This document shows, piece after piece, positions 8,982-16,966 of a stretch of DNA of 50,003 nt. Position 1 is the stretch's first letter. Each line of letters opens with the position of its first letter. The DNA lies in assembly GCA_016929655.1 (NCBI GenBank), contig JAFGIJ010000030.1, positions 1-50,003 on the forward strand, given 5' to 3'. A program made the position numbers and the translations under genes. The notes under the pieces were generated by a model. The model ran no database searches and was not told the DNA's origin. It saw nothing but the letters and a program-made list of their open reading frames with translations. The stretch is from Clostridia bacterium (GTDB lineage: Bacteria > Bacillota > Clostridia > DUPQ01).

Positions 8982-10010
8982 CTACTTCTTCTTTGAAAAT
9001 AGAAGACCTGCAATACCTGCTGCTCCAATAAGTGCAAATGGAAGGATTCCGGCTACACCAGTCTTTGGAATTTCAGTGTCATGTTCTACTTCCTGAAGAG
9101 TAAATCCTTCGGGAACAAGAACGGTATCAATTACGTGTATAACACCATTTGAGGCTTCTACATCAGTTCCGATTACAGTGCTCATATTTACTTTTACACC
9201 ATCATCCAGGTCAAATGTAACTGATTCACCATTGAGTGTTTCGGCTGTAAGACCATCTGTAAGATCGGTGCTCATTACCTTGCCCCCAACTACATGGTAC
9301 AGAAGTACTTCTGCGAGATCCGGTTGAAGCAAAAGCTGTTCTGCTGAAATATCAAGTGCTTCCAGGAGAGCTGCAAATGCATCATTTGTCGGTGCAAATA
9401 CTGTGAATGGTCCTTCGCCCTGAAGAGCTGAAACCAAGTCTGCCTGCTGGAGTGCAGCAACAAGTGTGCTGAAATTCTCATCTGCAAGAGCTATATCAAC
9501 TATGCTCATTTCTTCTTCCATATCAAGAGTGAATCCTTCAGGAATAAGAACGGTATCAATTACATGAATTACTCCATTGGTTGCTTCAATATCAGCTGTG
9601 GTTACTGTTGATTCATTGATCTTGACTCCATCGCTTAAATCAACTTTTATTGACTCTCCGTTGAGCGTTTCTGCCATCATTTCATCAGTTAGATCAGTGC
9701 TCATTACTTTACCCTGTACTACATGATACAGAAGAACATCAGCAAGACCTGACTGTGAAAGAAGCTCTTCAGCGGTTATATCCAATGCTTCCAACAGAGA
9801 TGCAAATGCTTCGTCTGTAGGTGCAAATACTGTGAAGGGTCCTTCACCCTGAAGTGCTTCTACTAATTCAGCTGTCTGAAGAGCTGTAACCAGGATTGAA
9901 AAACTTGAATCATTCGATGCTATATCTACTATATCGCCTTCTGCTGCACTTGTGGGTATCGCTACCATCAACAGCATGACTGCCATTATTAAACTTACTA
10001 CCTTTTTCAT
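8982..10010 (-). CDS. Cell-wall-anchored protein with two fasciclin (FAS1) domains
   Basis: The 342-residue protein has a signal peptide (KKVVSLIMAVMLLMVAIPTSA), two FAS1 domains (about residues 25-155 and 165-300), a short linker and a sorting signal: IPKTG at 314-318, a hydrophobic stretch and the tail SKKK. FAS1 domains are adhesion folds. The two domains are very alike (GEGPFTVFAPT, LLYHVV.GKVMSTDLTD, AETLNGES, NGVIHVIDTVL.PEGFTL in both), pointing to a fairly recent internal duplication. AGGAG lies 8 bases before the ATG. The divergent neighbour is a sortase, so the protein is probably its substrate and is covalently attached to the cell wall. The pairing is inferred; a housekeeping sortase elsewhere could also use it. 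Confidence 0.92.
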   Translation of the reverse strand: MKKVVSLIMAVMLLMVAIPTSAAEGDIVDIASNDSSFSILVTALQTAELVEALQGEGPFTVFAPTDEAFASLLEALDITAEELLSQSGLADVLLYHVVQGKVMSTDLTDEMMAETLNGESIKVDLSDGVKINESTVTTADIEATNGVIHVIDTVLIPEGFTLDMEEEMSIVDIALADENFSTLVAALQQADLVSALQGEGPFTVFAPTNDAFAALLEALDISAEQLLLQPDLAEVLLYHVVGGKVMSTDLTDGLTAETLNGESVTFDLDDGVKVNMSTVIGTDVEASNGVIHVIDTVLVPEGFTLQEVEHDTEIPKTGVAGILPFALIGAAGIAGLLFSKKK

Positions 10011-10101
10011 TTTTTTAACTCCTATTTTAAATTAAAAATTCAATTTTATGAAACATGATTACCCGGAAGCTTTTTTAATAAACATTTTGCAACTTAATTT
10101 G

Positions 10102-10116
10102 TGTGACATTGTCACA
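10102..10116. promoter_or_regulatory. Palindromic operator candidate between fasciclin and sortase genes
   Basis: TGTGACATTGTCACA is a perfect 7-1-7 palindrome in the 144-base divergent intergenic region. It resembles Crp/Fnr-superfamily half-sites (TGTGA/TCACA) but has a 5-base rather than 6-base centre. It could let one regulator control both genes. No strong promoter hexamers were assigned on either side. Confidence 0.45.
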
Positions 10117-10154
10117 TACGATGTTTTCCACATGAATAGGGTATATAGGAAAAT

Positions 10155-10988
10155 ATGAGATATATGAAAAAAACAATAAGAATAATATTAATATTAGCAG
10201 TTGCAGTCAGCTTTGTAATAATAAGTATATATATATACAACTTGCTACAAAACAAGAGAACAACGGATGAGATACAGGCGATATATGACAATATGCAACA
10301 AAGTAGCATAAATGCGGAACCAAAGCCCTCAGAAACACCTGATGCAAAACCAGAAGTTGAAATTTCTGAGACTCCTTCAAAAGAGGAAGTGGAAACAATT
10401 CCGGATAATATAACCGGTTATGTCATTGATTTAAGAAAAAACCCTAACAGTGAACTTCTTGCAATAAACAGTGATTTTGTAGGATGGGTCAAGGTTGAGG
10501 GAACAAATGTAGATTATCCTGTTGTAAAACACAGTGACAATGATTTCTATCTTAATCGGGATTTTTACAAGGAAGATAATATTGCCGGAAGTATTTATAT
10601 GGATTACAGGAACTTTGGTAATAAACTCGACGGCAATATAGTTATTTACGGACATAATATGAAAAACGGTACGATGTTCAACAGTCTGAACAATTACAAG
10701 GATGAAGGGTTTTTCAATGACAATATGATAATAACTTTCAGTAATTTATATGAAACATTTGAATATGAAATATTTTCTGTGTACTGGGTAAGTGCAGATG
10801 ATTATAAACTGGAGTTTGATTTTAAAAGTAATGATATAAATGAATATTACAATTTTTTGAAAAGTGAGTCGATTTTCCAAAGGGAATCAGTGATAACTGA
10901 TGTCAATCAAATCATAACCCTGGCTACCTGTTCGTATGAGGTAGATAACGGTAGACTGATGGTTCATGGCGTTTTAATTAATAATTAA
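10155..10988 (+). CDS. Class B-like sortase
   Basis: This membrane transpeptidase cleaves a sorting motif and joins the surface protein to the peptidoglycan. The 277-residue protein has an N-terminal membrane anchor (residues 9-31), a Pro/Glu-rich linker, then the sortase domain. Catalytic His167 (IYGHNMKNG), Cys259 (TLATCSYE) and Arg267 (NGRLMVHG) are all present. The sequence GWVKVEGTNVDYPVVK and the insert before the Cys favour class B. Class B sortases of some clostridia accept PxTG-type motifs, which fits the neighbouring IPKTG protein. Two starts are possible: ATG 10155, 4 bases after AGGA, or ATG 10164, 13 bases after it; neither spacing is ideal. It is divergent from the fasciclin gene and upstream of, but not co-transcribed with, the Tad locus. 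Confidence 0.88.
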   Translation: MRYMKKTIRIILILAVAVSFVIISIYIYNLLQNKRTTDEIQAIYDNMQQSSINAEPKPSETPDAKPEVEISETPSKEEVETIPDNITGYVIDLRKNPNSELLAINSDFVGWVKVEGTNVDYPVVKHSDNDFYLNRDFYKEDNIAGSIYMDYRNFGNKLDGNIVIYGHNMKNGTMFNSLNNYKDEGFFNDNMIITFSNLYETFEYEIFSVYWVSADDYKLEFDFKSNDINEYYNFLKSESIFQRESVITDVNQIITLATCSYEVDNGRLMVHGVLINN

Positions 10989-11036: not shown

Positions 11037-11066
11037 ATAAATGACAATAAATACCAGTGAGGCAAG

Positions 11067-12500
11067 ATTATCAAAAAGCTAAATGAAAGATATCGAATAA
11101 TAAAGGAGATTTCCAGCCATAAAAACCGGGTTGTTTATCTAGCCTATGACGAAATAACAGGTGCAGAAAGAATAATCAAGGAAATAAAGGAAAACGGCAG
11201 AAGCAATGCCAATGATTATACAGCACTAAGGAAACTCCATCACCCGGGTATTCCGGAAATCTATGATGCATTTGAAACAGGATCTTCTCTTTTCATAGTC
11301 ATGGAATTCATTGAAGGAAAAAGCCTGCCGGAGATTTTGCAATCAGAAAGTCATGAAGAGTTCAGGATAGCAGGTTATATACTGGACATTTTGGATGTAC
11401 TGGTATCAATGCACTCACTTAAACCGCATCCTGTAATCCACGGTGATATCAAGCCTGAAAATATACTGATTTGTGATAACAGGGCAATCCTGATTGATTT
11501 TGGTTCAATTTCAGGAACAAGTGGGTCTTCGGGTTTTTGTGCACCTGAAAAACTTGCAGGCTTTGATTCAACAATACAATCAGACATTTATTCAATTGGT
11601 CAGGTTATGCATTACTGTCTCACCGGCAGAACAAGAAAGCTTTTTGACAGCAACAAAAGAGAAATAAAAAAGGGATTTAATTCAATAATTGAAAGGGCAG
11701 TCAGGAAGCTTCCATCAGACAGATATGTTTCAGCCATGGAAATGGCCAATGACCTGAAACGATGGACCAAAGGTGTTGGTTCTGATAGCCAAAAGGAAAA
11801 CAGCACAACCCTTTTGTGTATACCCGGTAATCCCCACCTGTGCTGTGAAATGGCTTATGTAACCTCATGTTATGCAAATACCCTTCTTGCTGACCTTGAT
11901 TTGCTTTCTCCGGGAATTGATATGCTGATGGGTCTTCGAAAATTAAATGGTTCATCCCATGAATATGGATTTTCAGGAGATATTGAAGCAGGTTATGGTA
12001 TCATCCCGGGAAAGAAGTCAGGAAGACCTGACATTTTGCCATGCTTTTCAAGCTATGATGCCTATGAGGAAACACAGAATGGAATTATAAAAAGAATAGC
12101 AAAAATCTATAGTGATATTTATGATGTGATTATTATTTGCTGCAGTGCTTTTCCATATGACAGCACTTTGGTTGAAGCTCTTTTTACATGTGACCATATT
12201 TTATTCTCAGTCGAGAAAGGACCTTTGGACATCAGAAAGCTGAATTCCATGGCACTGCACTTTTCCAGAAGACAGGGTGTTAACATCAAACGTTTAAACC
12301 TGATAGGGTATGGATTTTCTGAAAAAAGCATTGATCCTGCTATTGCCGGAATATCAGCGGAAGTCAGGTGGCTGGGTCAGTTGCCGCATATAAGCCAAAG
12401 GGTAACTCAGTCTATGAACGGAATGGCGTATCTTCCAGAGAAAAAAAGCAGAGGCTTCAAAGCAATTACAAGAATCCTGAAGAAACTGGAGGTGATCTGA
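11067..12500 (+). CDS. Hanks-type Ser/Thr kinase fused to a TadZ/CpaE-like domain, probable AUU start
   Basis: The track begins at 11301, inside the kinase, but the frame is open back to a TGA at 11058. It encodes a full N-lobe, MIKKLNERYRIIKEISSHKNRVVYLAYDE, with no ATG, GTG or TTG in between. The only well-placed initiator is ATT at 11067, a few bases after GTGAGG. Kinase motifs: Lys38 (RIIKEI), HGDIKPEN with Asp127 (an HGD, not HRD, loop), DFG at 144, APE at 159-161; the glycine loop is weak. The kinase ends near residue 232. Residues from about 247 to 477 look like a MinD-family TadZ/CpaE domain with a degenerate P-loop (CIPGNPHLCC) but a kept DLDLLSPGID segment, and end in QLPHISQRVTQSMNG. 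It overlaps cpaF by one base. A role in pilus placement controlled by phosphorylation is inferred. Confidence 0.82.
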   Translation: MIKKLNERYRIIKEISSHKNRVVYLAYDEITGAERIIKEIKENGRSNANDYTALRKLHHPGIPEIYDAFETGSSLFIVMEFIEGKSLPEILQSESHEEFRIAGYILDILDVLVSMHSLKPHPVIHGDIKPENILICDNRAILIDFGSISGTSGSSGFCAPEKLAGFDSTIQSDIYSIGQVMHYCLTGRTRKLFDSNKREIKKGFNSIIERAVRKLPSDRYVSAMEMANDLKRWTKGVGSDSQKENSTTLLCIPGNPHLCCEMAYVTSCYANTLLADLDLLSPGIDMLMGLRKLNGSSHEYGFSGDIEAGYGIIPGKKSGRPDILPCFSSYDAYEETQNGIIKRIAKIYSDIYDVIIICCSAFPYDSTLVEALFTCDHILFSVEKGPLDIRKLNSMALHFSRRQGVNIKRLNLIGYGFSEKSIDPAIAGISAEVRWLGQLPHISQRVTQSMNGMAYLPEKKSRGFKAITRILKKLEVI

Positions 12501-13684
12501 TGCCTTTGGTTAAAACACTGTTTGAACCCATTGGAAAGACAGCTGAAAAAGACAGAAAAAACGGAATATCAGTGGAAAGTCTGGCAATGAAGATAACCGG
12601 TGAGATTATTGAAGATAAACCGTATTTTGTCATGGACTCCTTTAGGGAAAAAGACGACAGGGATGGGCTTCGAAGGGAAGTCATAAGAATCCTTGACAGG
12701 GATAATCTGTATTTTTCTGTCAACAGAGATGAACTTATCAGGGGCATATTTGATTTTATGTTCGGGTATGGAGCATTGCAGAAGTATATTGATGATGAAG
12801 ATATAAGTGACATTGATGGAACCAGATACAATGAATTTACAATCAAGAAACTGGGGGAAAGATACAGAATAGATGTTGATTTCGGTGACGAAAGGGCATT
12901 TGAAACATACTGCCGGCTGATAGCTGTAAGAAGCGGTGGCTTTTTGAATGAGGATGATACCCATTGCAGGACTGCAGATATTAAAAGCAAGCTTAGGATA
13001 AATGTTTCAATTCCGCCTCGAAATGTATCAGGACCTGCTATCAGTATAAGAAAACACAGACAAAATGCCTATACCCTTGAAAACCTGAAAGAGCTTTGCA
13101 TGCTGGATGATGAAGCTTTCAGGATTATACAAAAAATGACTCACAGTAACTCGAGTATCCTTTTCTGTGGGAAGGGAGCTGCCGGAAAAACGACACTTCT
13201 AAGGGCTTTCCTTAATTCACTTCCGGAACTCGAAAGGGTTCTGGTCGTTGAATCCGATGCTGAAATCTATCCAAAGAAAGCATTTTGTATAGAACAAAGA
13301 ACCAAGAGACCTGAAGAAGGAGGCAGACCTGTTTCACTAGAAGGACTGGTCAGAGACGGGCTTACAATGTCCCTGGATACCTACTGTGTCGGAGAGTTGG
13401 TAGGAGAAGAGGCATACTCATTCATCAAGGCATCATGCACAGGTCACAGGATGCTTGGAACAATCCACTCAAAAAATGCCTTCGAAGCCATTGGAAGGAT
13501 TGTTTCCCTTGCCGCCGGTGCCGGTTCAAATGACTCAGTTGAAAGGCTGATGGATTCTGCGGCTTCCGGAATAGACTGCGTCATCTATCTAAAGGAATTC
13601 AAAGTCATTGAAATCATATTGGTTAAAGGCATGGAAAATGGTGAACCCGGTTATGAAAGTATTTATAGAAAGGATACAGAATGA
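12500..13684 (+). CDS. cpaF: Tad pilus assembly ATPase CpaF/TadA
   Basis: This secretion ATPase powers assembly of Flp pili at the inner face of the membrane. The ATG at 12500 overlaps the previous TGA (TGATG) and follows GGAGGTGAT, so the tracked start at 12368 is rejected. The 394-residue protein has the CpaF N-terminal region, INVSIPPRNVSGPAISIRKHR, a Walker A GKGAAGKTT at about residues 224-232, the acidic box around VVESDAEIYP, and the His-box-like region CTGHRMLGTIHSKNAFEAIGRI. The Walker A has Ala-Ala where Gly/Ser is more usual, but Lys and Thr are kept. It is co-transcribed with tadB, tadC, flp and cpaB. Confidence 0.9.
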   Translation: MPLVKTLFEPIGKTAEKDRKNGISVESLAMKITGEIIEDKPYFVMDSFREKDDRDGLRREVIRILDRDNLYFSVNRDELIRGIFDFMFGYGALQKYIDDEDISDIDGTRYNEFTIKKLGERYRIDVDFGDERAFETYCRLIAVRSGGFLNEDDTHCRTADIKSKLRINVSIPPRNVSGPAISIRKHRQNAYTLENLKELCMLDDEAFRIIQKMTHSNSSILFCGKGAAGKTTLLRAFLNSLPELERVLVVESDAEIYPKKAFCIEQRTKRPEEGGRPVSLEGLVRDGLTMSLDTYCVGELVGEEAYSFIKASCTGHRMLGTIHSKNAFEAIGRIVSLAAGAGSNDSVERLMDSAASGIDCVIYLKEFKVIEIILVKGMENGEPGYESIYRKDTE

Positions 13685-14478
13685 TTTATTTTACTGCAAA
13701 TCTGCTGATTATATCTATCTTGTACATATTGATGACTAACACTGATATTTTGCATAAGATAACTGGCTATAAAAGGAGTCTCAGGGTAGCTTTTGATAAA
13801 AGAATGGTTCTTTCTACCAGTGCCGTTTCGTTCGTATTATCTTTCATCATATTCAGTATAATTCTTGGTAGTACCGCTGCTGCGCTTTCCATTTCAATAA
13901 TACCTGCCTTTTGTGTATATGGTGCATTTGACATGATTTCAAGGGCAAGGCAAAGCCGGGAAGCAGGTCAGATCACATATTTTCTTATGACCATGTCCAA
14001 ATGGAGTGCTGTAAGGAATGACATGGTTTTCTGTCTGAAAAAAACAACAGAGGCCGGAATTGAAAAGCCTGTTGGGGTTCTGCTTGAAAGGACACTTGGA
14101 AGAATAAACGGAGGAATGGATATAATCAGGGCATTTTCTCTGCTTGAAGAAGAAAGCAGCAGTGAAGACCTCAGGTATCTTAGCAGGAGTATAAGATTTG
14201 CGGCAGAAAAAGGTGGAAATCTGCAAAAACTGTTCACCGGAATGGAACAGCAGTATTTCAGAATCGATGAAGAAACATTCAAAAGAAAGATTTCAACAGT
14301 CAGGGACAGAGGAGCAGTTTACCTGACCGTAATAATAGTTATTGCAACAGCATTTTGGTTTTTGCTCAGCAATCCTACTGCAGGAGAATTCTATCTCTAT
14401 ACATCATTCGGGAACTATCTGCTGATGGCATTTTCAGCAGTATTTGCAACGGCACTGATATTTATGACGGGTAGGTGA
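13681..14478 (+). CDS. tadB: TadB-like pilus assembly membrane protein (T2SSF family)
   Basis: The 265-residue protein has two membrane segments near the N terminus (about residues 4-20 and 45-75), a cytoplasmic helical domain with the T2SSF pattern (LLERTLGRINGGMDIIRAFSLLEEE, YLSRSIRFAAEKGGNLQKLFTGME) and two further membrane segments at the C terminus. TadB and TadC form the membrane platform that works with the CpaF ATPase. It overlaps cpaF by 4 bases (ATGA) and lies 3 bases before tadC. The sequence is divergent, so the assignment rests on domain pattern and position in the operon. Confidence 0.8.
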   Translation: MIYFTANLLIISILYILMTNTDILHKITGYKRSLRVAFDKRMVLSTSAVSFVLSFIIFSIILGSTAAALSISIIPAFCVYGAFDMISRARQSREAGQITYFLMTMSKWSAVRNDMVFCLKKTTEAGIEKPVGVLLERTLGRINGGMDIIRAFSLLEEESSSEDLRYLSRSIRFAAEKGGNLQKLFTGMEQQYFRIDEETFKRKISTVRDRGAVYLTVIIVIATAFWFLLSNPTAGEFYLYTSFGNYLLMAFSAVFATALIFMTGR

Positions 14479-14481
14479 TTT

Positions 14482-15258
14482 ATGATTTTAGCCATTTTTC
14501 TTCTAAATGTATCGGCAGCCTTGATATTTTTGAACCATATAAATGCTGCAAAATTGAAGGGAGTCAATCCCTCAAAGGTGAAAAAGGGTAAACTACTGTT
14601 TCCAGGTCTTTCTGACAGACTGAAAAAGGCCGGCATTCATTCGAAGGCTGACACAACCTTCTATATTCTTTTACCTGCAATTATGATTCCGCTTGGGTTG
14701 TTAACTGCAATACTGGTTGATGCTGCCGGTGGTTTTTTGCTGATGGCTGCCCCTGCATTTTTATCCGGCATGTTTTTAAAGATAAGAAAAAGAAGGCACG
14801 ATTCTGCATTTCAAAAAAATGCCTACAGAATTTACAAATACATTTTAAATCAAATAGCTGCGGGAGTAAGAACAGTTGATGCTCTTAGGAACATGCATGA
14901 AGTAATTGAGGACAGGGAGTTGTCTGCAATTTTTACGGAAGCTTGTGCTGCATATTCTGTTTCATACGATGGTGTGAAACTTGCAGATGACATATCCCAG
15001 AGAATAGACACACCTGAATCAAGGAGTTTCACGATGTCTATAAGAGATGGTCTGTTTGAAAGCCGTGATGAACAGCTATTGGACAGGCTTGAACAGATGA
15101 TGTTCAACAGATATTTTGCATATGTGCAGAGGATGACGGATTCATTGAAGACCAGGTGTCTGATAACTGTAATACTTCTTTGTTCCATTATTGTATGCAT
15201 GATCCTGATACCTACAATCATGGATGTGCAAAGTGCACTGGACAGTATATTTACATAA
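14482..15258 (+). CDS. tadC: TadC-like pilus assembly membrane protein
   Basis: The 258-residue protein has an N-terminal hydrophobic segment, a second hydrophobic pair around residues 58-95 (ILLPAIMIPLGLLTAILVDAAGGFLLMAAPAFL), a cytoplasmic helical part (QIAAGVRTVDALRNMHEVIEDREL) and a C-terminal membrane helix (CLITVILLCSIIVCMILIPTI). This layout and its place right after tadB indicate TadC, the partner platform protein. A short AGGTGATTT sequence precedes the ATG. The match is by architecture more than by strong motifs. Confidence 0.75.
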   Translation: MILAIFLLNVSAALIFLNHINAAKLKGVNPSKVKKGKLLFPGLSDRLKKAGIHSKADTTFYILLPAIMIPLGLLTAILVDAAGGFLLMAAPAFLSGMFLKIRKRRHDSAFQKNAYRIYKYILNQIAAGVRTVDALRNMHEVIEDRELSAIFTEACAAYSVSYDGVKLADDISQRIDTPESRSFTMSIRDGLFESRDEQLLDRLEQMMFNRYFAYVQRMTDSLKTRCLITVILLCSIIVCMILIPTIMDVQSALDSIFT

Positions 15259-15268
15259 GGAGATCAGT

Positions 15269-15487
15269 ATGAAAAAGAAAATCAAAGGATGGTTATTGGC
15301 AAACCTCAATTATTTGAGGAACACAAATGGCTTCGGTTTATATGAAGTCATAGGAATTGCGGCAGTATTGATTGTTGCAGCATTTGTAGTTATACCGGGT
15401 TTTCGTAATTTTGCCCAGGGAATAATGGGCCAGATGGACAGCTGGGTTAATGACAGCATCATCGGAAAGATATTCCCGGCAAGCTGA
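15269..15487 (+). CDS. flp: Flp-type major pilin
   Basis: A 72-residue small protein. The start at ATG 15269 follows AAGGAGATC at a good distance, so the longer tracked ORF from 15224 is rejected. It has a basic N-terminal leader (KKKIKGWLLANLNYLRNTNG) and a hydrophobic helix FGLYEVIGIAAVLIVAAFVVIPGF. Cleavage after the Gly of NTNG would leave Phe1 and put Glu at position 5, as in type IV pilins. It is probably the structural subunit of the pilus built by CpaF, TadB and TadC. No prepilin peptidase is present in the window, so one encoded elsewhere would be needed. Confidence 0.85.
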   Translation: MKKKIKGWLLANLNYLRNTNGFGLYEVIGIAAVLIVAAFVVIPGFRNFAQGIMGQMDSWVNDSIIGKIFPAS

Positions 15488-15867
15488 TGGCGGAGAGAGC
15501 ATTGGTATCAGCAGTATTGCTGGTCATTGTGATGAGTATTTGCCTGTATATGACGGAGTGCTTTGTGCCTATTGGAAGGAACATGGATTTTCGTGATACA
15601 TGCAGGGATTATCTGATGAGGATGGAGTACAACTCAGGACTTGGTTCGTCAGACTGCAATGAACTCGAGGATGAACTCGAAGCAATGGGATTCGATGACA
15701 TCAGAATTACTGCTCCTGCTTCCGCAAAGGCGGGTACTGTGATGACTCTTTCCGTAAGCGTTATTTACAATCAGTCAGGGCTGTTCGGTATTTTGGAAAG
15801 AACAAGCCGCAACTATGTCATGAACTATGAAAGGCAGGCAGTGGCACGAAAGGTGGTTAACAGATGA
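15487..15867 (+). CDS. Small pseudopilin-like protein of the Tad operon (DUF4320-like)
   Basis: A 126-residue protein with one N-terminal hydrophobic helix (ALVSAVLLVIVMSICLYM) and an extracellular domain including NMDFRDTCRDYLMRMEYNSGL. The ATG overlaps the flp stop by one base (TGATG) and the end overlaps the next gene by 4 bases, so it is part of the operon. Similar short proteins (DUF4320 or TadE-like) occupy this place in Firmicutes Tad loci and may act as minor pilins or tip proteins. I do not recognise specific catalytic motifs. The function is inferred from context. Confidence 0.6.
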   Translation: MAERALVSAVLLVIVMSICLYMTECFVPIGRNMDFRDTCRDYLMRMEYNSGLGSSDCNELEDELEAMGFDDIRITAPASAKAGTVMTLSVSVIYNQSGLFGILERTSRNYVMNYERQAVARKVVNR

Positions 15868-16325
15868 TCCGGTGGAACAAGGGTTTTGGTGTAGGGCAGA
15901 GCATTGTTTTACTGGGTTTTCTGGTATTCCTGCTTATTCCTCTGTTTACATTCATGACAGAAAAAATCTATATCAAGTATGTTGTACATATAATGAATGA
16001 AGCGGCTGATTTGGCAGCAATGACAGCTTACCAGGAAATAAACGCAGAAATCCTTGCCTCTGGCAACATAGGATTTTCCTCAGCTGATTGTATTGAAGAC
16101 AGGATTATTCATTCATTGGAAGAAAACAAAATAGAGGGAATCAAAATAAACAAGTGCGATGTAGCCATACATGCAGCAGGAGAATGCTGCAGGCTTGGGA
16201 ATACATCACAGTATGACTTCATACATCTGCTTCTAAAAGTTACGGTAAAACGTATACACGACAGCAGCAGAGTGCAGTTCTATATACACAGGGATGTGGA
16301 GATACCCTGTATAAGGATGGAATGA
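15864..16325 (+). CDS. TadE/TadG-like minor pilin-type protein
   Basis: A 153-residue protein with a single N-terminal membrane helix (SIVLLGFLVFLLIPLFTFM) followed by a short basic region and a predicted extracellular domain (VHIMNEAADLAAMTAYQEINAE). The pattern of a helix followed by an 'A.DLAA..A' region is typical of TadE/TadG-type proteins that contribute minor components to Tad pili. It overlaps both neighbours by 4 bases. Three cysteines (in SADCIED, NKCDVAI and GECCRLG) could form disulfides outside the cell. Family assignment is tentative. Confidence 0.6.
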   Translation: MIRWNKGFGVGQSIVLLGFLVFLLIPLFTFMTEKIYIKYVVHIMNEAADLAAMTAYQEINAEILASGNIGFSSADCIEDRIIHSLEENKIEGIKINKCDVAIHAAGECCRLGNTSQYDFIHLLLKVTVKRIHDSSRVQFYIHRDVEIPCIRME

Positions 16326-16966
16326 TGAGAAAGACAATTTATATAGTGCTTGCAGTTCTTTTAGCTGCAGGACTGACAGTTATTCAGGCAGTTATTGCAA
16401 AGTCTGCTTCGAGAAGCAACGAAACAATAGTATATGTTGCAGCGGATGATTATAAAAAAGGGACAGTCCTTGAAGACTCACACTTGAACGAACTTGTGAT
16501 TTATACGAAAAATGCAGATATTCATACATCGGTTGAAAGCAAGCAGGACCTTATTGGTATGACACTTTCGGGAGATATTGTCAAAGATGAGATAATTACA
16601 TCGGCGATAATATATGACAGTAAATTGCAGGCGGAGGATGAAAGGTATGTTGCCCTCAAGGTGGATGGAAGCAATTTCAATGCCGGCTTTCTGACAGCTG
16701 GTGATATTGTTGATATTTTCTTTCTTCCGGATTTTGAAAAACTGGAAAATTATCAGATTGTGTGGTTGAATGAAAATCTTGTGGGTTATTCTCGATTTAT
16801 AAAAGGTAAAACACCGGGGATACTTATAAATGATCTGCGCATAAACCATATTAGTAAAACAGCTGGAGACCAGGCTGAATATGTAAGCGTATGTGTCCCG
16901 GGAGAGGTTGATGAAGTGATAGCTTTTCTTGAACAAATCAGTGAATATGAGTTCATCGGGCATTGA
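16322..16966 (+). CDS. cpaB: CpaB/RcpC-like SAF-domain pilus assembly protein
   Basis: The 214-residue protein begins with a membrane anchor (TIYIVLAVLLAAGLTVIQAVI) and then a SAF-type domain: VYVAADDYKKGTVLEDSHLNELVIYTK, DLIGMTLSGDIVKDEIITSAIIY and YVALKVDGSNFNAGFLTAGDIVDIFFLP. This order is that of CpaB/RcpC, an outside-facing Tad assembly protein thought to contact peptidoglycan or the pilus channel. Two adjacent ATGs (16322 and 16325) overlap the previous stop; either may be used. It is the last gene of the operon. No terminator is evident before the trmN6 promoter. Confidence 0.82.
   Translation: MMRKTIYIVLAVLLAAGLTVIQAVIAKSASRSNETIVYVAADDYKKGTVLEDSHLNELVIYTKNADIHTSVESKQDLIGMTLSGDIVKDEIITSAIIYDSKLQAEDERYVALKVDGSNFNAGFLTAGDIVDIFFLPDFEKLENYQIVWLNENLVGYSRFIKGKTPGILINDLRINHISKTAGDQAEYVSVCVPGEVDEVIAFLEQISEYEFIGH

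Follow-up and report, generated by a model that had tools for sequence, protein, structure and literature searches.

A kinase-headed TadZ-like protein encoded at the start of a Tad pilus operon in Clostridia

The fusion gene and its Tad operon

The window analysed here is a stretch of 50,003 nucleotides from a draft genome of an uncultured member of the Clostridia. A gene at 11067..12500, which we call KinZ, encodes a fusion protein of 477 amino acids, and it is followed by a compact Tad operon in the order fusion gene, cpaF, tadB, tadC, flp, two genes for small putative minor pilins and cpaB, all on the forward strand. The fusion protein consists of a Hanks-type kinase domain (residues 5-231; 11079..11759) and a MinD/ParA-fold, P-loop-less TadZ-like domain (residues 243-477; 11793..12497).

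The motor ATPase gene cpaF/tadA (12500..13684; T2SSE E=3.5e-23, TIGR03819 E=5.6e-37) overlaps the fusion gene, as the TGA of the latter and the ATG of the former share the sequence TGATG, and the Shine-Dalgarno sequence of cpaF, GGAGGTGAT, lies within the fusion gene. The tadB-like platform protein is encoded at 13681..14478 (T2SSF E=1.9e-6) and the tadC-like one at 14482..15258, the latter being assigned by a weak T2SSF match (E=0.0067) and operon position. A Flp-type prepilin (15269..15487) carries the processing motif NG/FGLYEV, and this prepilin is conserved in relatives. Two small proteins conserved in the operon follow: a membrane-anchored putative minor pilin at a TadE-like position (15487..15867), with no Pfam match, and a second TadE-like putative minor pilin (15864..16325) with a weak match to TIGR03816 (E=0.075). 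The last gene is cpaB/rcpC (16322..16966; TIGR03177 E=2e-9, with SAF and RcpC matches in Pfam). The operon encodes the Tad (type IVc) set of CpaF, two platform proteins, Flp prepilin and CpaB, with TadC resting on its weak match and position. Neither a phosphatase nor an FHA reader is encoded in the Tad operon of the window's family, f1.

No clear match to a prepilin peptidase (PF01478) was found in the whole genome containing the window. Since five relatives have clear matches and the assembly is 89% complete, the missing gene is best explained as a gap in the draft assembly. Elsewhere in this genome, an FHA-domain protein (G000:C97:6447-6647, L202; an open frame of 325 amino acids) is a possible phosphothreonine reader. 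In the region 8982-10988, just 5' of the Tad operon, a gene for a fasciclin-like protein with two repeats and the sorting-type signal IPKTG at its C-terminus adjoins, in divergent orientation, the gene of a class B sortase (TIGR03064 E=1.7e-56).

The reading frame of the fusion gene contains no stop from 11061 up to the TGA at 12498-12500, and the 477 residues are counted from a non-canonical ATT at 11067; an ATC at 11070 is the other candidate start. A Shine-Dalgarno-like GTGAGG (11057..11062) is located 4 nt 5' of the ATT and 7 nt 5' of the ATC. No ATG, GTG or TTG was found ahead of the kinase N-lobe, in frame after the upstream stop, in the window or in two related loci (L095 and L096). The first in-frame ATG of the fusion gene is at 11301, and a start there would cut off Lys38. 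The same start position is occupied by ATC, ATT or ATA in all members of the window's genus (g1) and of a second genus (g3) that have the region. In four loci (the window, L092, L095 and L096) a GAGG precedes the rare start by a few bases, the last three having a Shine-Dalgarno-like GAGG or GGTG at equal spacing. In one g3 locus (L097) an ATG is present two codons 5' of the rare-start position, and the fusion genes of the third genus, g2, have an ATG start after GGAGG. A non-AUG start codon (ATT, ATC or ATA) is thus apparently common to two genera (window 11057-11072, L092, L094, L095 and L096). From these sequence features, initiation of the window's fusion gene at 11067 or 11070 is likely, and if true it would keep the fusion protein scarce.

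The kinase domain and the MinD-like domain

The N-terminal domain matched the Pfam kinase family PF00069 over residues 21-206 (E=9e-26, 91.3 bits against a curated cut-off of 31.7), with further kinase matches in NCBIfam and the PDB. Alignment placed the ATP-anchoring β3 lysine at Lys38 (11178..11180), the catalytic loop at His125-Gly126-Asp127 (11439..11447; HGD at the HRD position) and the metal-binding DFG motif at Asp144-Phe145-Gly146 (11496..11504), followed by a short activation segment and the APE motif at residues 159-161. The β3 lysine, the Asp and Asn of the catalytic loop and the Asp of DFG are all kept (K38, D127, N132 and D144), and the acidic residue of αC is Asp50. The original prediction of a Hanks-type kinase with Lys38, Asp127, DFG and an HGD rather than an HRD loop, in a gene heading a Tad pilus operon, was borne out on each of these points. 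The Gly-rich loop, in contrast to the sequence LGKGGMGTVY of kinase-type relatives, has no glycines in the window (EISSHKNRVVY). In the alignment, the GxGxxG loop was absent from every f1 member with an N-lobe and present in the fusions of f63, f216 and other families. The PASTA kinase profile NF033483 gave the window kinase 107 bits, below its cut-off of 450 bits, and no PASTA domain was matched in the protein. AlphaFold2 modelling of the full-length fusion on three sequences yielded an unusable model (pLDDT 43), and the kinase was therefore assessed from its sequence alone. By its residues the domain may be competent for catalysis.

As a single sequence, residues 243-477 gave no match in Pfam or NCBIfam. 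A profile built from ten relatives of this C-terminal domain retrieved MinD structures from the PDB (1ion, E=1e-7; 1g3q, E=1.5e-6). The AlphaFold2 model of the domain had a pLDDT of 72 and a pTM of 0.79, and Foldseek matched it to FleN, FlhG and MinD with a probability of 1.00, E of about 1e-8 and TM of about 0.7. Profile, model and structure search hence agree on a MinD/FleN fold, in line with the MinD-like part predicted originally. Alignment with P-loop TadZ proteins located the lost Walker A position at 11817..11852 (CIPGNPHLCCEM). In the window, Walker A has shrunk to GNPH with no GK[ST], in keeping with the predicted loss of the P-loop, and the Walker B Asp is substituted. All aligned members of the subfamily, whether their N-terminal domain is kinase or receiver-like, share the missing GK[ST], the contracted Walker A and the loss of the Walker B Asp; the Asp of the A-prime strand is retained in most of them when aligned with canonical P-loop TadZ. 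Judged from these motifs, the MinD-like domain is one that has lost the site for binding ATP in the manner of MinD. The original prediction had tied this loss to the presence of the kinase, and this part did not hold: since the receiver-like relatives also lack the P-loop, its loss belongs to the C-terminal domain family and is independent of the kinase.

The protein ends in a basic amphipathic helix (12444..12497), seen as a helix in the model and putatively a membrane-binding tail. Its hydrophobic moment is 0.56 and its net charge +5, with a shuffle P of 0.04 for the window and 0.01-0.22 for relatives.

Conservation in the family and distribution in the class

The fusion is present at full length in 10 of the 11 genomes of family f1, which cover three genera; the eleventh holds a fragment cut by the end of its contig, and is still followed by cpaF. 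Where the contigs extend far enough, the family keeps one gene order, which begins with fusion, cpaF, tadB, tadC and flp. The kinase motifs differ among the genera. The window's genus, g1, retains the Lys, HGD and DFG, and g3 retains the Lys and HGD with DFG changed to DFA or DFD. In g2 the β3 Lys is replaced by Ser, HGD by HGN or HGS and DFG by DYG, which makes this domain a pseudokinase. The dN/dS of the g2 kinase domain is 0.10, a rough value from the one pair with estimable, and high, dS. It is similar, at 0.105-0.135, for the more intact kinase domain of g3, and the C-terminal domain gave 0.05-0.07. The g2 pseudokinase is still under purifying selection. Since it is so without the catalytic Lys and Asp, catalysis is not the sole conserved role of the domain, and at least part of that role is non-catalytic.

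A profile of the C-terminal domain was searched against 391 genomes of the class and matched in 37 of them. The proteins behind the better hits were read for the type of their N-terminal domain, and doubtful ones were checked with Pfam. A kinase joined to the same P-loop-less C-terminal domain occurs in 22 genomes from 10 families: eleven in f1 (one as the fragment), two each in f214 and f67, and one each in f63, f216, f205, f12, f22, f16 and f209. The fusion gene lies directly 5' of cpaF in f1, f63, f216, f205, f12 and f214. A search for the predicted fusion beside cpaF in relatives thus located it repeatedly, often just before cpaF, which shows that it is no artefact. The Gly-rich loop is intact and the catalytic loop of RD type (YRD or FRD) in the fusions of f63, f216, f205, f12, f22 and f16, and DFS replaces DFG in that of f209.

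The remaining loci, in f16, f209, f67 and f22, were assigned by eye from gene order and the starts of the sequences. Those of f16, f209 and f67 (L194, L195, L196 and L201) form a second kind of Tad-like locus, in which the fusion and a divergent gene resembling cpaF are one to three genes apart, and those of f16 and f209 encode a separate second MinD-like protein besides it. At the f22 locus, MinD-like and cpaB-like genes follow the fusion and no cpaF was seen. Because of the second MinD-like protein in f16 and f209, and because the fusion does not adjoin cpaF in f16, f209 and f67, there may be cases in which the fusion is not the only TadZ.

Families f21 and f26 have the same C-terminal domain behind a shorter, non-kinase N-terminal domain. 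A profile of the C-terminal domain made from f1 alone matched the whole of the f21 domain with E of about 1e-29, while reversed controls gave E of 9 or more; the f21 proteins so matched are of a receiver-like TadZ type and are located before cpaF. Their type of N-terminal domain is homologous to that of one P-loop TadZ (hhalign E=8e-6). Comparison with canonical receiver domains gave no hhalign link, and Pfam called no receiver in them. We call this domain receiver-like on the basis of its size and its homology to that one TadZ N-terminal domain. A phmmer search with a receiver-like relative against the PDB set gave no TadZ match. One genome of this receiver-like TadZ type, G160, has its Tad operon (L116:7479-18973) directly beside conjugation-like genes on the same strand, which by eye encode VirB4-, VirB6-, PrgI- and VirB8-like proteins and an M23-like peptidase.

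These relatives agree with the prediction that the kinase stands in the place of the receiver domain, since other proteins of the family carry a receiver-like domain there. As either type is found on the same C-terminal domain and in the same place, the N-terminal domain has been exchanged. On the tree of the C-terminal domain the type of N-terminal domain changes several times, with a provisional count of five, and the starred branches force at least two changes for the kinase label. The tree of kinase domains has fusions at two or more positions, a pattern compatible with one or several origins of the fusion. When the f63 fusion served as query, most matches were ordinary kinases, and none of 30 loci had a MinD-like domain or cpaF.

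Proposed role and comparison with known systems

We propose, with a probability of roughly 55%, that the fusion is a variant of TadZ/CpaE, the protein that normally helps to place and organise the pilus motor. In this variant a kinase or pseudokinase would replace the receiver domain in a ring around CpaF; it would be a scaffold and, in certain lineages, possibly a phosphorylating switch too. The analysis shows directly how the protein is built and folded, where its gene stands in the operon, how far it is conserved, which catalytic residues it has, its drift to a pseudokinase and the selection on it. The fusion occupies the TadZ/CpaE position in the Tad (type IVc) pilus machine of a monoderm and probably functions in a TadZ-like way. 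In the Caulobacter Tad system, six CpaE dimers ring the CpaF hexamer, and in the piliated state CpaE moves to the base of CpaF (PMC13170226). The receiver domains of CpaE are thought to join neighbouring dimers, and a C-terminal amphipathic helix is predicted to hold the membrane (PMC13170226). By analogy with this diderm machine, from which we infer the ring placement, we would expect the MinD-like domains of the fusion to dimerise and its kinase domains to take the place of the receivers, bridging dimers at the CpaF ring. The kinase domain would then be a docking or scaffold module which organises or positions the motor, a role we likewise infer as common to the active and pseudokinase versions. 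Any phosphorylation would be confined to lineages that keep the catalytic residues, such as that of the window, where CpaF, the platform or the fusion ring itself may be phosphorylated and extension tuned.

An active kinase dedicated to the pilus, delivered by the MinD-like tail and turning extension on or off by phosphorylation of CpaF or TadB/C, would explain the intact catalytic residues in the window's genus, the full Gly-rich loops and RD-type catalytic loops of the f63, f216, f205, f12, f22 and f16 fusions, and the coupling of the fusion gene to cpaF. This explanation is possible but doubtful, because the Gly-rich loop is lost throughout f1, the Gly of DFG is replaced in g3 and a full pseudokinase is still selected in g2, and the f1 operon supplies neither a phosphatase nor an FHA reader. 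It is a similarly tentative idea that the fusion protein, as an integral part of the ring, phosphorylates CpaF or the platform and so gates Tad extension, having decayed to a structural pseudokinase in some lineages.

The kinase pocket could instead have taken over ATP binding from the MinD-like domain and made dimerisation and membrane cycling responsive to ATP without phosphotransfer. The loss of Walker A and B together with the retention of Lys38 and the DFG Asp in g1 and g3 would fit such a sensor, as would the use of ATP by canonical TadZ to dimerise (PMC13170226). We regard it as improbable, since the receiver-like relatives lack the P-loop as well and have no kinase pocket, and g2 lacks the ATP-anchoring Lys. 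A chance fusion or an assembly artefact might be suspected, given a draft genome of 229 contigs and a fusion gene that lacks a canonical start. The ten full-length matches and the contig-end fragment among eleven f1 genomes, on independent contigs and in the same gene order, together with fusions in nine further families, leave practically no room for it, and it was ruled out.

We found no published description of a kinase-headed TadZ and none of a kinase gating layer for type IV filaments; both searches covered the open-licence literature, so they are not proof of novelty. Papers on Gram-positive Tad loci, the evolution of type IV filaments and monoderm pili mention TadZ and not a kinase (PMC3244431, PMC6668835, PMC6916266). 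TadZ/CpaE is among the very few accessory proteins of monoderm systems, and it has been asked whether TadZ holds the assembly complex together (PMC6916266). Exchange of the receiver-like domain for a kinase throughout the family, together with the loss of the ATPase site, tells apart two sets of features: the protein must keep its MinD fold and some partner domain at the N-terminus, and it can do without ATP hydrolysis and catalysis. Active-looking kinase, weakened kinase and pseudokinase form a natural series within one conserved operon, and this series makes the choice between scaffold and switch directly testable.

The best structural matches of the C-terminal domain, FleN and FlhG, are MinD-like proteins that regulate how many flagella are made and where, and they are P-loop ATPases without a kinase domain. 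The Hanks-type PASTA kinases of Bacillota, PrkC and StkP, share the kinase fold and the core catalytic residues with the fusion, whereas the fusion has no PASTA match, has lost the Gly-rich loop, has a short activation segment and carries a MinD-like domain. TadZ of Eubacterium rectale and CpaE of Caulobacter have the same MinD/ParA-fold C-terminal domain and are encoded with cpaF, tadB, tadC and flp; the amphipathic C-terminal helix may be a further common feature. They differ in having an atypical receiver domain where the fusion has a kinase, and the deviant Walker A of known TadZ binds ATP (PMC13170226, PMC6668835), whereas the fusion has no Walker A. With neither a P-loop nor a receiver domain in its sequence, the fusion ought not to be classed with the ordinary TadZ proteins. 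EssB/YukC of type VII secretion resembles it in being a kinase or pseudokinase built into a machine, with active-looking and dead versions (PMC11217815). EssB and TscD-type proteins are membrane proteins of a different machine, for which a MinD-like fusion is not described (PMC11217815). As an analogy, the EssB parallel shows that such machines can use kinase folds both ways, as pseudokinases and in active-looking form.
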